Assembly (NCBI RefSeq): GCF_000786105.1
Contig: NZ_JTEV01000005.1
Location: forward strand, 1-60,290
Reading direction: 5' to 3'
From: Bdellovibrio sp. ArHS
GTDB lineage: Bacteria > Bdellovibrionota > Bdellovibrionia > Bdellovibrionales > Bdellovibrionaceae
DNA: 60,290 nucleotides
A program made the position numbers and the translations under genes. Shown piece after piece: positions 9,513 through 39,364 of the stretch. Position 1 is the first letter of the stretch, and every line of letters starts with the position of its first letter. Under the pieces are notes generated by a model that was not told the DNA's origin, did no database searches, and saw only the letters and a program-made list of their open reading frames with translations.

Positions 9513-10325
9513 TTATTTTTGGCAGCGTGAACACCAGAAGGTGTTTCGCCCACCCAGAACTTTCGACTTCACCTGTTGCCCACAAGTCACACAAGGCATT
9601 TTTGCGCGATCGTAGACTCGAAAACTCCTCTGAAAGTAGCCACTTTCTCCACTGGTTTGAGCGAAGTCGCTGATCGAGGAACCACCGAGTTCGATCGAGC
9701 GAGATAAAATTTTTTTAATCTCGTTTGCCAGAACCTCGGCTCGATCGCGAGAAAGTTTTTGCGCTGGCAGCGTCGGCCTGATTCCCGCGGCAAATAAGGC
9801 TTCACTGGCATAGATGTTCCCAACGCCGACCACGATTTTCTGATCCATAATCGCCACTTTGATCGCCACATCTTTACCACGCAGACTTTCCCAAAGCTGT
9901 TTTCCAGTAAAACTTTTCGTCAATGGCTCTGGCCCCAAACCCTTTAGTTTCGGGTGTTCCAGGGGATTTTGCACAAAATCAAAGTAGCCAAATCGACGTG
10001 GATCGCGGTACGCCAGACGAAGATTTCCGGAAAAATGAAGATAGATATGATCATGCAGACGCTCGTCACCGGGAGGAGCCACCCGCCACGTGCCGGTCAT
10101 ACCCAAATGCGAAAGCATCGCGCCTTTTTTAGTCCAAAGAAGAAGGTATTTGGCTCGTCTTTCAACAGATAAAAGCTTTTCCCCCACCAAGATGCTTAAT
10201 TTTTTAGCAGGAATGGGCTCCCGCAGATCCGCCCTTTTTAGCTCGATCTTCTGCAAAACGGGCTCATCCTTCAGGATCTTTTCCAAACCTCGGCGCACAA
10301 CTTCGACTTCGGGCAACTCGGGCAT
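9513..10325 (-). CDS. mutM: Formamidopyrimidine-DNA glycosylase
   Basis: A 270-residue base-excision repair enzyme removing 8-oxoguanine and formamidopyrimidines and nicking the abasic site. The mature N-terminus PELPEVE supplies the catalytic proline and glutamate. Further hallmarks are RAKYLL, SHLGMTG, VGVGNIYASEALF and a C-terminal zinc finger with paired cysteines in PCVTCG and FWCSRC. Length is standard. It is monocistronic, reading away from the 10.3-11 kb intergenic region. Confidence 0.95.
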   Translation of the reverse strand: MPELPEVEVVRRGLEKILKDEPVLQKIELKRADLREPIPAKKLSILVGEKLLSVERRAKYLLLWTKKGAMLSHLGMTGTWRVAPPGDERLHDHIYLHFSGNLRLAYRDPRRFGYFDFVQNPLEHPKLKGLGPEPLTKSFTGKQLWESLRGKDVAIKVAIMDQKIVVGVGNIYASEALFAAGIRPTLPAQKLSRDRAEVLANEIKKILSRSIELGGSSISDFAQTSGESGYFQRSFRVYDRAKMPCVTCGQQVKSKVLGGRNTFWCSRCQK

Positions 10326-10642
10326 CTCAACCTAACCTATTGCTTTTATTGATTTTCTTTATCATAGCGAAAACCAGTGGAACTTCTCACCACCCTTTTA
10401 TTCCATAACATCTTCCGAAGCAAATCCCTACCAGGAACCGTCACCGTCCGCAGTCTTGGTTCTAGATCCAGCTTTTACAGGGCAGAGCCCAGGTTGAAGG
10501 CCTTTCGGCGGATTTAAGAACCTCGAGCGAGGCCTCAATAAAGATTTTGTTAAGGGGAAAGAAAGAACTCTCTCTTTGTGCCAAGTTATAGCAACCTGCA
10601 CAATATGGACAAGAAAAGCGAGTCAACTTTGTCGAAGCCTGA
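10326..10642. other. Non-coding stretch upstream of mutM, no gene seen
   Basis: These 317 bases hold the mutM promoter region and short palindromes such as CCTCGAGCGAGG. No reading frame here has both an SD site and a plausible product, and no tRNA-like fold was found. Confidence 0.5.
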
Positions 10643-10790
10643 GATTTGGTGTGGAGGAAATACTTTATTGGTCGGAGTTCAGCCTCCACCGGCGCCTGGA
10701 TGGCGCGAACCGGGCGACAGCCCGGCGGTGGCTGAGGCAGGAGGCCGTGCTGAACGGAGCACCGATAAAGTATTTCCTCCACACCAAATC
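10643..10790. repeat. 148-bp inverted-repeat element (REP/MITE-like)
   Basis: The ends are perfect 26-bp inverted repeats (10643-10668 and 10765-10790; the left arm begins GATTTGGTGTGGAGG). Inside, further nested pairs extend the fold: GTTCAGC (10677-10683) with GCTGAAC (10749-10755), CCACCG (10686-10691) with CGGTGG (10726-10731), and a tip hairpin CCGGGC-GACA-GCCCGG (10710-10725). The whole element can form one long cruciform or RNA hairpin. No clear target-site duplication flanks it, and it has no coding capacity of its own. It may be a dispersed repeat, a MITE remnant or a structured RNA. Confidence 0.75.
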
Positions 10791-10901
10791 CCTCGCGCTT
10801 ACAACCAGACTACTGGATCAGTTTCAAAACGGAATAAACTACAGAATAGAACAAGGGCTCATTTGGCAATCCCACTTTGCAGAGGCAGGGCCTTCGAAAG
10901 A

Positions 10902-10927
10902 AAAAAGGAGTCTTACGACTCCTTTTT
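10902..10927. terminator. Terminator of the nuo operon
   Basis: AAAAAGGAGTC (10902-10912) and GACTCCTTTTT (10917-10927) form an 11-bp stem with a 4-base loop and T-rich ends on both strands. It lies 40 bases beyond the nuoI stop. Confidence 0.88.
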
Positions 10928-10966
10928 GCTTCAATTTCGATATAAAGACGGTTACGCCGTTAAATC

Positions 10967-11491
10967 TTAGATACCAGATTTCAAACGTTCTTCATCATCA
11001 ACGTGTGTTTGGATTCCGCCTTTAAGATTTGGACGATAAGCCAAGTGGTTGATGTCGTAAATGAAGTTTGCACCGTTCACGCCTGGAGTTTGCCACTCAG
11101 GTCCCAAACGGATGGCATCTACTGGACACGCTTCTTCACAGTAGCCGCAGAAAACGCAGCGAAGAATGTCGATTTCGTAGCTGATCGGGAATTTTTCGAC
11201 ATGAGGGTCGTTATGTTCCGCCGCTACGATTTTAATACATTCTGCAGGACAGTTCGTCGCGCACAACATACACGCCGTACAACGAAGAGATCCGTCTTTT
11301 TTCACTGTCAAAACGTGATTCCCTTTGAAACGAGGAGAATATTCATACTTTTCCTCGGGGTAATTCAACGTCATCATTTTCTTGCGGTTGAAAAGATTCA
11401 CCAGCAAGTGCTTCATGGTGATGCCCAGGCCACCCAGGACCCCTGGCAGGTACCACTTTGCTTTTTCGGAGTTATTTTGCATTACGCTCAT
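10967..11491 (-). CDS. nuoI: NADH-quinone oxidoreductase subunit I
   Basis: A 174-residue ferredoxin-like subunit of complex I. Two 4Fe-4S motifs are complete: CTACMLCATNCP (C71, 74, 77, 81) and CVFCGYCEEACP (C112, 115, 118, 122), the N6a and N6b clusters that pass electrons toward NuoB. It is the last gene of the operon and its start overlaps the nuoG stop by 4 bases. In most nuo operons nuoH lies between G and I; here it is missing. Confidence 0.95.
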   Translation of the reverse strand: MSVMQNNSEKAKWYLPGVLGGLGITMKHLLVNLFNRKKMMTLNYPEEKYEYSPRFKGNHVLTVKKDGSLRCTACMLCATNCPAECIKIVAAEHNDPHVEKFPISYEIDILRCVFCGYCEEACPVDAIRLGPEWQTPGVNGANFIYDINHLAYRPNLKGGIQTHVDDEERLKSGI

Positions 11492-31024: not shown

Positions 31025-31194
31025 TTCCTCGCGTTTTAAATGTCAGTTTTCTGTTGTGGCGCAGTACGCATTTTATTAAGTACTTGCTTCGCTGCCTAAT
31101 TTCATATTTAAACTTCATACGTTCCGTATATGCTGTGAATAGGGCACAGCGTTTCTACAAGGCACCAAAAATGTCTGTCTATGGAGGGGTTTAT

Positions 31195-32055
31195 ATGACA
31201 GCAAGTTTTCTGTCGGTTCTGTTCGTTCTTTTTTCTGGGTCGTCTTTTGCAGCGACATATTCTCAACAAATTCCATACTACGGCGAAGATTTTTATAATG
31301 ATCTTTCTTCGGGTGTTCAAAACGAAGAGCTGGTCGCGCGCTTACAAACAGTGTTGCGCAGCCAGCATCGTGTGATTCCTGGGCAGATGGATGAAATCAC
31401 CGATAACTGTAATGGCACGAAGGGTTGTTACCAACATATCTCGTTGGGATATGACCGTGCCCGTATCTTCCTTCTGGGCGTTTACTATCTTGTCGACGAA
31501 GGAAATGGCAACTACGGTCTTCCTGATGTCTACTGTGCGAACATCCGATATAGCAATGAGTTCCGCGGAACACCTCCGGGCCCTCGCACGATTCCTGATA
31601 GCACGACTTTAAATACAGAGCACACCTGGCCTCAAAGCCGCTTCACTGGCAAATTTGATAAAGGTATGCAAAAATCCGATCTTCACCACTTATACCCTGC
31701 CGACTCTGAAATGAACTCTGTTCGCGGCAACAACGAATTTGGTGAAGTTTCCCGGGACTCAAAAGTTCTTAAATGCCGAGTTTCCCGCACGGGTAAGGGT
31801 ACAGGCGGCGGTGCTGAAATCTTCGAACCACCGACGGGTCACAAAGGAAATGTCGCCCGCGCTTTATTCTACTTCTCTGTCCGCTACAGCACACCAATCA
31901 GCCCGAACCAAGAAAAAGTCCTTCGCAAATGGCATCTAGAAGATCCTGTTGACGAAGAAGAGATGCACCGAAACAACGAAATTCAGAAAACTCAGGGAAA
32001 CCGCAATCCATTTATCGATTTCCCTGAATTAGTCGATTACATCCATAATTTTTAA
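31195..32055 (+). CDS. Secreted endonuclease I (EndA/NucM family)
   Basis: A 286-residue nuclease. After the signal peptide (to about residue 20, SSFAAT) come the family motifs NTEHTWPQSRF (catalytic H143), SDLHHLYPADSEMNSVRGN and FGEV, then GNVARALFYFSVRY and the ending WHLEDPVDEEEMHRNNEIQ. The His-Me fold uses one metal ion and cuts DNA and RNA non-specifically. The longest frame starts 141 bases earlier, but ATG 31195 has GGAGGGG and starts the signal peptide. In a predator it may digest prey nucleic acid. Confidence 0.93.
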   Translation: MTASFLSVLFVLFSGSSFAATYSQQIPYYGEDFYNDLSSGVQNEELVARLQTVLRSQHRVIPGQMDEITDNCNGTKGCYQHISLGYDRARIFLLGVYYLVDEGNGNYGLPDVYCANIRYSNEFRGTPPGPRTIPDSTTLNTEHTWPQSRFTGKFDKGMQKSDLHHLYPADSEMNSVRGNNEFGEVSRDSKVLKCRVSRTGKGTGGGAEIFEPPTGHKGNVARALFYFSVRYSTPISPNQEKVLRKWHLEDPVDEEEMHRNNEIQKTQGNRNPFIDFPELVDYIHNF

Positions 32056-36815: not shown

Positions 36816-39364
36816 TGGCTCAACTGTTTTCACTTCCGATCGATTCGTTCGTCCCCGCCATTCAGGAAAAACTGAAGTCTGAAAACAATCTTGTTATTAC
36901 CGCAGCCCCGGGGGCCGGTAAAACAACGCGTTTACCGCCCGCCTTATTGAACGTGGTTACAAAAAAAGTTATCGTCCTAGAGCCACGAAGAATGGCGGCG
37001 ATTGCCGCCGCTCACCGCATCGCCGAAGAACAAGGCTGGCAAATCGGTCGCGAAGTCGGCTATCAGGTGCGTTTTGCCAACAAAACCTCTAAAGACACCC
37101 GATTGATTTTTATGACCGAGGCCCTCTTGGCTCGCCAGATGATTCAGGACCCTGAGTTGCAGGACGTCGACCTAGTCATTCTGGACGAATTCCATGAAAG
37201 ATCCATGCACGTCGATCTGGCTTTGGGGCTTTTACGCGAGCTTCAGGAACTGGGCCGCGATATCAAAATTTTAGTGATGTCAGCAACCCTAGAGGCCGAT
37301 AAAATCTCGTCTTATCTGGGAGACTGTCCCATCTTCAGCGTTCCCGGCAAGCTGTTTGAACTAGAGGTTCGTTACCAGAAATCTTCGCAACATCTGCAAA
37401 CGTTTCCAAATTTTTACGACACGCTTCTGCAAACTGTGAAAGAGGCCCAAACCCAGACGGACAAAGATATTTTGGTATTCCTCCCCGGCGTCGGAGAAAT
37501 AGACCGCGCACAAAACACTCTGCAAGCTTGGGCGGATACAAAAAACATCGAACTTGTCCCCCTGCATGGCTCTTTAAACATTGAGGATCAAAGAAGAGCT
37601 TTGCAGAAGTCTTCTCGCCAGCGGGTCGTCCTTTCGACCAACATTGCCGAATCCTCGGTCACTATTGACGGTGTGAATACCGTGATCGACTCTGGCTTGG
37701 CCAAAAATATGAAGCAGGATCACCGCACCGGCTTTTCTCGATTGGAATTAGGACGCATCAGTCTTTCCAGTGCGATTCAACGAGCCGGACGGGCCGCCCG
37801 TCAATTTCCCGGCGTTTGTTATCGGCTTTGGAATAAGCACGATGAACTATCTTTTAGTAAAAGTGAGATCGCCGAGATTCAGCGCGTAGACTTGACCGAA
37901 AGTTTGTTATTCTTAAGCGCCCAGGGAGTGACGGACTTTGAAGCTTTTAGCTGGTTTGAAAAACCGGCCACTGTCGCTATCCAAAATGCGACCAGGTTTT
38001 TAAAAATTTCAGGCGCTTTGGGCGAGAACGGCAAAATCACCGACCTCGGAAAACGCATCCTGCACTTCCCCCTTCCCGTTCGTCTGGCAAAACTGATGTT
38101 GGTCGGAATGGATTTGCATGCGACCGAGCTGGCTTCGGAAATGGCCGCCCTTCTTCAAGAGCGTGACATCTTAAAGAAAGAATCCACGAATTCTTTTTTG
38201 GGAGACAACTTAGAATGCGATCTTTCCGCCCGCCTGGAAGTTCTTCACCAATTTAGAAAAAACAAGCGGGCACCGAAAGAAGCGGCATTCTTCGCTTTAC
38301 AAACCGTCGACCAGTCCGCCCGGCAGACAGAAGAGCTGGCGAAGCGTCTGGCAAGCAAAGGCGAAAATGCCGCCATCAGTGCCGCAGGACGAAGCACACC
38401 AGGCGATGGCACCACCGTTAGAAATATTCTTTTAAGAGCCTATGCGGACCGCCTTTGCCGCCGTCGTGGAAAATCCGAACGAGCTTTGATGGTCGGCGGA
38501 CGAGGGGTGAAGCTTCAAGCAGAAAGTTTGGTTAAAACTTCCGAATTTTTCGTGGCCCTGAATGGCGTGGAAGGAAGTTCCGATGCGGAAACCGTCGTCA
38601 GTCTGGCCTGCGGTTTTGATAAGGACTTCATTCTGCAAAACTTTAAGGACAGCATAACGAAAGTCAAAGATGTGACTTTCATCGAAGATAAAGGTCAGTT
38701 CTTCACGCGCGAGTATCGTTCTGTGTTCGGTTTGGCATTGGATGAGCCGACCTTAACACCGGCCTCCGCCGACGATATCGCAGACAAACTTCCGCAGATC
38801 TTGGCGGAAAAGATGGATTTGGTTTTAAAAACCAATGAAAAACTTTCTGATTGGTGGCAGCGACTTCAGTTTTTGGAAAATCAAGAGGCCCAAAATCTGG
38901 ATCTTGAAAATTTGCAGATAGAAGCTTTTACCCAGGCCAGCCTGGGCGAAAGCAAAATGCAGACCGTAATGGAAAAAGACTTGGTCTTCTTTTTTGAAAA
39001 TGTTTTTCCGGAAAAAGTTGTTCAGACTTTAAGAAAAGAGCTTCCCGATAAAATCCAGGTTCCCAGCGGCAGCCACATCAAAGTTCATTATCCTTTGGAC
39101 AAAGCTCCTTATCTGGAAGTGCGTATTCAAGAGGTCTTCGGCATGATGGAAACACCTAAAGTGTATTTTGGCAAGATCCCGCTGACATTCCATCTATTAG
39201 GGCCGAATTACCGTCCCGTCCAGGTCACTGCGAATCTGGAAAGCTTCTGGAAAAACGGCTACCCTGAAGTTAGAAAAGAATTGCGCATTAAATATCCCAA
39301 ACATCAATGGCCCGAAGATCCCGCGGATGGCACCCCCGAAGCCAAAGGTCGACGGCGTTTTTAG
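36815..39364 (+). CDS. hrpB: ATP-dependent helicase HrpB
   Basis: An 849-residue DEAH-type RNA helicase. Motif I is APGAGKTTRLPPALL, motif II DEFHERSMH, motif III MSATLE, and motif VI IQRAGRAARQFPG. The C-terminal HrpB-specific region follows (last about 130 residues, with PSGSHIKVHYPLDKAPYLEVR). The role of HrpB is poorly known. It overlaps the RsmI-like gene by 1 base and its end overlaps the convergent small gene by 4 bases. Confidence 0.93.
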   Translation: MAQLFSLPIDSFVPAIQEKLKSENNLVITAAPGAGKTTRLPPALLNVVTKKVIVLEPRRMAAIAAAHRIAEEQGWQIGREVGYQVRFANKTSKDTRLIFMTEALLARQMIQDPELQDVDLVILDEFHERSMHVDLALGLLRELQELGRDIKILVMSATLEADKISSYLGDCPIFSVPGKLFELEVRYQKSSQHLQTFPNFYDTLLQTVKEAQTQTDKDILVFLPGVGEIDRAQNTLQAWADTKNIELVPLHGSLNIEDQRRALQKSSRQRVVLSTNIAESSVTIDGVNTVIDSGLAKNMKQDHRTGFSRLELGRISLSSAIQRAGRAARQFPGVCYRLWNKHDELSFSKSEIAEIQRVDLTESLLFLSAQGVTDFEAFSWFEKPATVAIQNATRFLKISGALGENGKITDLGKRILHFPLPVRLAKLMLVGMDLHATELASEMAALLQERDILKKESTNSFLGDNLECDLSARLEVLHQFRKNKRAPKEAAFFALQTVDQSARQTEELAKRLASKGENAAISAAGRSTPGDGTTVRNILLRAYADRLCRRRGKSERALMVGGRGVKLQAESLVKTSEFFVALNGVEGSSDAETVVSLACGFDKDFILQNFKDSITKVKDVTFIEDKGQFFTREYRSVFGLALDEPTLTPASADDIADKLPQILAEKMDLVLKTNEKLSDWWQRLQFLENQEAQNLDLENLQIEAFTQASLGESKMQTVMEKDLVFFFENVFPEKVVQTLRKELPDKIQVPSGSHIKVHYPLDKAPYLEVRIQEVFGMMETPKVYFGKIPLTFHLLGPNYRPVQVTANLESFWKNGYPEVRKELRIKYPKHQWPEDPADGTPEAKGRRRF

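Follow-up and report, generated by a model that had tools for sequence, protein, structure and literature searches.

The palindrome between nuoI and mutM in a Bdellovibrio genome belongs to a multicopy repeat family whose members share a folded interior. The pairing of this interior is under constraint, since two-sided covariation exceeds that of both shuffled and slid controls. We give an even chance to the reading that the copy described here is an intact, non-autonomous mobile palindromic repeat, recognised through its folded core, with arms kept by concerted rewriting, and tolerated at gene ends. More tentatively, the family might represent a class of mobile element for which the fold of a conserved core, and not the ends, is the defining feature; template switching would rewrite its long arms jointly, and its insertion at stop codons would spare the gene. 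The window, that is, the whole stretch of 60,290 nucleotides that was analysed, corresponds to contig C5 of G000, a Bdellovibrio draft genome of 3.54 Mb in 47 contigs.

The window copy and its conserved core

The copy lies between nuoI (stop at 10967, minus strand) and mutM (start at 10325, minus strand). This adjacency is not seen in relatives: other genomes of the genus match the nuoI and mutM parts separately. As the original prediction had it, the element stands between mutM and a terminator-like hairpin that follows nuoI. The gap was also thought to be the only long non-coding one, which is imprecise; a rough map of the ORFs has four ORF-poor gaps longer than 600 bp, the interval 10326–10966 (641 bp) among them. 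Elsewhere in the window, a purine riboswitch (RF00167, 56 bits) occupies 31104–31201 on the plus strand.

The predicted inverted arms are present, with 10643–10668 and 10765–10790 being perfect reverse complements over 26 bp; taken at 30 nt, the arms are 97% complementary. The RNA fold of 10630–10800 has an energy of −101.7 kcal/mol, compared with −60.1 ± 4.2 for 200 shuffled sequences (z −9.85), none of which equalled it. The nested internal stems, with the GACA tip, were likewise recovered, together with a fifth small stem (H3) that had escaped mention. The limits first assigned to the element, 10643 and 10790, are those of the palindrome but not of the repeat, which, judged from other copies, reaches about 10629 on the left and 10824 on the right, where it ends in GGATCAGTTT.

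Table. Features of the window copy and its surroundings (window coordinates).
Feature	Positions	Strand	Remarks
Left tail TTGTCGAAGCCTGA	10629–10642	+	common to copies L002 and L007
Left arm	10643–10672	+	26 bp perfect; 29/30 paired with right arm
Match to family covariance model R1 (core and inner arms)	10663–10777	+	93.1 bits, E 4.8e-26 in window; window copy itself among the 94 model sequences
Stem P2, 5' side, GTTCAGC	10677–10683	+	partner 10749–10755
Stem P3, 5' side	10686–10691	+	partner 10726–10731; 5/6 pairs covary in family
Hairpin H1, GCGCC-TGGAT-GGCGC	10692–10706	+	pentaloop NSGAN; stem 10692–10696/10702–10706
Conserved GAA directly after H1	10707–10709	+	
Hairpin H2, CCGGGC-GACA-GCCCGG	10710–10725	+	stem 10710–10715/10720–10725; most family members have a C-G closed GNA/AAA triloop
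Hairpin H3, GGC-AGGAG-GCC	10736–10746	+	stem 10736–10738/10744–10746
Right arm	10761–10790	+	
Right tail	10791–10824	+	end is AAACTGATCC on minus strand; abuts gene stops in several copies
Terminator-like hairpin after nuoI, outside repeat	10902–10927	−	
Empty site TAG	39362–39364	+	relatives G018/G001 carry an inverted element pair there

The shared interior, about 75 nt long, consists of a three-way junction (P3, H1 and H2) within P2, plus the small hairpin H3; a C(NSGAN)G loop is present in both H1 and H3. About 120 copies were fetched, and 94 of them were aligned and used to build the covariance model R1. In this alignment 94.6% of cells are paired, versus 77% after shuffling and roughly 30–57% in slid controls. 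Two-sided changes affect 20 of the 26 core pairs, and cells with double changes number 421, against 120 in the control.

Individual copies carry additions to this plan. In G008 an element with different arms occupies the corresponding nuoI end, 3' of the gene (L219:1230–1530), and its H3 holds an additional insert of about 60 nt with hairpins of its own. The H1 loop of another copy (L283) is expanded to a comparable degree.

Copies, arms and insertion sites

The recent spread that had been proposed is borne out within G000, where further complete and partial copies are 93–98% identical and have the same arms but unrelated flanks. The exact right boundary, AAACTGATCC as read on the minus strand, is shared by nine copies of this subfamily. 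Several of the copies terminate contigs, as expected for repeats in a draft assembly. The left part is missing from some assembled copies (L003, L004, L005 and L279), and L007 has an internal deletion. Each of the four left-truncated copies retains an exact right end, and their truncation points vary. Palindrome deletion, or else the way in which the elements insert, could account for the polarity of left truncation in this subfamily.

A second set of copies (L008, L010, L019) has the centre in common but not the arms. A search with the arm sequence had been proposed as the way to find copies with differing interiors; the family is built the other way round, with a common interior and differing arms, and only the recent G000 subfamily shares its arms. 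The centre motif GGCGCCNNGATGGCGCGAACCG occurs in 22 of 24 genomes of the genus (G000 included) and almost nowhere outside it. An exact-pattern scan of named records returned three contigs of Bdellovibrio MAGs and eight contigs of other bacteria, the latter probably chance matches. Model R1 detects 1–31 copies per genome in 23 of the 24 Bdellovibrio genomes. The complete-looking genus genome G004 has none and G003 has one, while close relatives have many. Elsewhere in the phylum, copies of the same design are sparse among other genera, families and classes, with seven to eight in G342 and G343. Copies L246, L248, L250 and L252 enclose the same kind of core in long, near-perfect arms.

Rfam covariance models, applied to the element region and to the window, gave nothing at the gathering score for the element, and the family was not matched in phage, plasmid or viral contigs. 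Its description was not found in the open-licence papers searched; as far as could be found, the family is apparently previously undescribed.

The arms are matched and yet variable. Over 111 copies the longest perfect arm run has a median of 19 bp, and the likeness of arms between copies is barely above that of shuffled arms. Outside the G000 subfamily conserved terminal inverted repeats are absent, and only a loose outer motif, ATTTG...CAAATCC, is common. Orthologous copies differ mainly by paired changes: nine compensated doubles and two singles separate L070 from L090, whose flanks are 86% identical, and five doubles and one single separate L008 from L074 (flanks 88% identical). At a site behind groEL, identified by its C-terminal sequence, L075 and L091 have almost wholly different perfect arms, with flanks that are 97% identical and cores that are nearly so; a donor for the replaced arms of L091 was found in neither G001 nor G018. 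L068 and L082 have one arm identical and the other different, the footprint that would be expected of an arm rewrite by template switching caught half finished. Template switching creates and maintains perfect hairpins, as described for RNA genes (PMC8794818), and the arm patterns seen here resemble what such switching within a hairpin would leave. Over the 111 copies, left arms are poor in C (about 12%) and rich in G and T, and right arms are the mirror image; the only candidate accounts of this strand asymmetry are template switching and single-strand deamination.

The elements are placed unevenly with respect to genes. By a crude ORF rule, divergent promoters are avoided (8 of 109 copies) and the gene on the right side points toward the element in 78 of 109. 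In 50 of 95 copies a stop codon is found no more than about 40 nt from the right edge, whereas the left edge has one at this distance in 10 of 87 (p 2e-9); 46 of the 95 stand directly at a stop codon. That codon is TAG in 25 of the 46 (54%), as against 5 of 40 long ORFs in the window (about 12%; p 4e-5). A terminator-like site lies past the element in only four of these stop-adjacent copies; for 23 other copies a canonical terminator is found between the stop and the element. CTAG was considered as a general target and rejected, its enrichment at element edges being only mild.

Empty sites in relatives, as read by sequence comparison, indicate insertion. The window itself contains one: an uninterrupted TAG that ends a helicase-like gene and overlaps the stop of a convergent gene. 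At this position G018 has an insert of about 0.9 kb with an element at each end, the two being inverted relative to each other, and TAG at both junctions, and both convergent genes retain a stop. A 3-bp TAG target duplication is apparent at this one site, the only clean two-sided empty site read, where what was inserted is the element pair. At the L003 site the element of G000 corresponds to a plain terminator without element in G001 and G018; the terminator region has been replaced by the element, not merely split. Near pairs, 300–700 bp apart, are all in (−,+) order. Orthologous intergenic positions keep the element in up to four species even though the intergenic flanks no longer align, and such long persistence exceeds what a purely selfish repeat predicts.

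The folded strand and a published transcript

Intrinsic terminators from the same loci served as a control for the kind of molecule that folds, with G-U and A-C pairs scored by symmetric rules. The counts of G-U and A-C are 23 and 6 in 1287 pairs for the terminators, 12 and 2 in about 2109 for the core, and 16 and 7 in about 1785 for the arms, the last without a conserved A-C mismatch that lies beyond them. The G-U share of the core is 0.6%, versus 1.8% for the terminators (p 7e-4). H2 ends in a triloop in 76 of 94 copies, 74 of these being closed by C-G, compared with 14 triloops in 129 terminators; the triloop sequences of H2 include GAA (28), AAA (24) and GCA (13). C(GNA)G triloops form very stable mini-hairpins in DNA. 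Scarce G-U pairs together with C-G closed triloops favour single-stranded DNA of the core sense as the folded form, and we give this reading moderate weight. On the core strand G-U pairs nevertheless outnumber A-C pairs (28 versus 9), and one copy lies within a transcript, which leaves room for a role as RNA.

This transcript is from B. bacteriovorus HD100, whose genome has copies near 976, 1,033, 1,339, 1,481, 1,516, 2,308, 2,430 and 3,607 kb. The coordinates of G006 and HD100 agree, since the c-di-GMP riboswitch of G006 (1,073,868–1,073,951) falls within the published merRNA (1,073,741–1,074,185). The attack-phase transcript APsRNA6 extends from 1,338,787 to 1,339,441 on the plus strand (PMC3627812), and an element at 1,339,135–1,339,252 lies inside it, in the antisense-of-core direction and 3' of a 92-codon ORF. 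The published end of APsRNA6, estimated like the other ends from coverage, lies past the element; thus the HD100 copy is not a complete terminator. The ORF (APsRNA6 is L298:488–1142) encodes a small membrane-like protein and has the element in its 3' UTR; the mapped end lies in a second, internally deleted element. APsRNA6, although published as an "sRNA", may be an mRNA. The refuting case set out for the window copy, an isolated palindrome with a single copy, no covariation and no transcript, is contradicted for the family as regards copy number and covariation, and the HD100 copy lies within a published transcript.

Explanations and related systems

Three features, namely the loop type, the scarcity of wobble pairs and the absence of a linked transposase, are suggestive of a non-autonomous mobile element that is read as a folded single strand. 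Such an element would be mobilised in trans by an enzyme of the host or of another element, which would read the core stems and loops of the folded strand instead of terminal sequence. By inserting at a TAG stop, the element would restore that stop, and the gene would survive. The arms would need complementarity only, so that mutations in one arm could be copied to the other by replication template switching, which would keep the arms perfect while their sequence drifts fast. A copy in a 3' UTR may secondarily serve as an end structure of the mRNA. A mobilising enzyme for the family was not found, and no parent autonomous transposon was seen in the flanks of the copies.

The main rival, to which we assign a smaller but appreciable probability, is a selected RNA structure in the 3' UTR that takes over from an intrinsic terminator in ending or protecting the upstream mRNA and has spread by duplication because it is useful. 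It is compatible with a mobile repeat. It would account for the fixed orientation after stop codons, the rarity of terminator-like sites beyond stop-adjacent copies, the occupation of the relatives' terminator position at the L003 site, the long persistence at orthologous sites and the HD100 copy within APsRNA6. It fits poorly with G-U pairs being so much scarcer than they are in terminators, with triloops in place of RNA tetraloops, with the 23 copies preceded by a canonical terminator, and with a wobble bias that favours the strand opposite to the HD100 mRNA; furthermore, no U-tract follows the hairpin, and the published HD100 transcript crosses the element, with its end further on. The last two observations led us to reject a classical intrinsic terminator. 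If instead the mobile unit were a composite transposon with an inverted pair of palindromes as its ends, and single copies were solo ends, the uniform order of near pairs and the pair between two TAGs in G018 would follow directly. Most copies are single, however, and two convergent genes that had each gained an element of their own would be expected to give this order as well; we consider this explanation improbable.

Somewhat less probable still is an element of the REP/BIME type that depends on a RAYT (Y1 HUH) transposase for its movement, an origin that the original prediction entertained. Intergenic hairpin repeats in inverted pairs and Y1 transposases in 21 of 24 genomes would be in keeping with it, but the number of Y1 genes is uncorrelated with copy number (rho 0.26, p 0.23), G012, a complete genome with 19 copies, gave no Y1 match, and none of 30 Y1 genes has a core within 1.5 kb. 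Nor does the alignment contain a unit of 20–40 nt with a conserved 5' tetranucleotide and a short hairpin, and copies number 1–31 per genome, not hundreds. Neutral palindromes generated by replication template switching, with neither transposition nor function, would have perfect arms and one-arm rewriting, but could not yield a conserved core sequence, conserved loops or near-identical copies at unrelated sites. This last account is refuted as far as the core is concerned, and we regard it as very improbable.

A mobile repeat read through its core shares features with several known systems. Like REP/BIME repeats with RAYT, it is intergenic, palindromic, multicopy, often at gene 3' ends and a hairpin as single strand; it differs in the lack of a linked Y1 gene, the larger branched core, the long locus-specific arms and the low copy number. 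The earlier description as MITE-like holds in part: the element is small and free of coding sequence, with the apparent TAG duplication at one site, but a parent transposon was not found and conserved terminal repeats are absent. MITEs and Correia/NEMIS, RUP and ERIC repeats are likewise about 150–220 bp, palindromic and without ORF, with a target duplication likely at one site in the present family; in MITEs, however, the terminal inverted repeats are also those of a parent IS, whereas the Bdellovibrio copies share the centre and differ in the arms. Integron attC sites also conserve structure while stem sequence varies, and a folded single strand would likewise be the form that is recognised; a three-way junction core is not known from attC. 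Group IIC introns, which insert after terminators, show a similar fixed orientation at transcript ends, and some copies of the present repeat stand right behind a terminator T-tract; but it has no Rfam intron match and no recognised catalytic domain, and half of its copies follow a stop codon. Hairpins maintained by template switching have the same multi-base compensatory changes, perfect stems and asymmetric base pairs (here, the C-poor left arm), but were described as products of a mutation mechanism in RNA genes and not as a mobile repeat family (PMC8794818).

It is usually by ends common to all copies that small palindromic repeats are recognised; in the Bdellovibrio family the ends vary and only their pairing is kept. 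The family thereby provides dozens of natural replicas, and comparison of close species allows replication template switching to be followed in them. A preference for stop codons would explain how such a repeat can spread in a compact genome and leave the genes intact, and in the model predator Bdellovibrio its copies give many transcripts additional structure at the 3' end.
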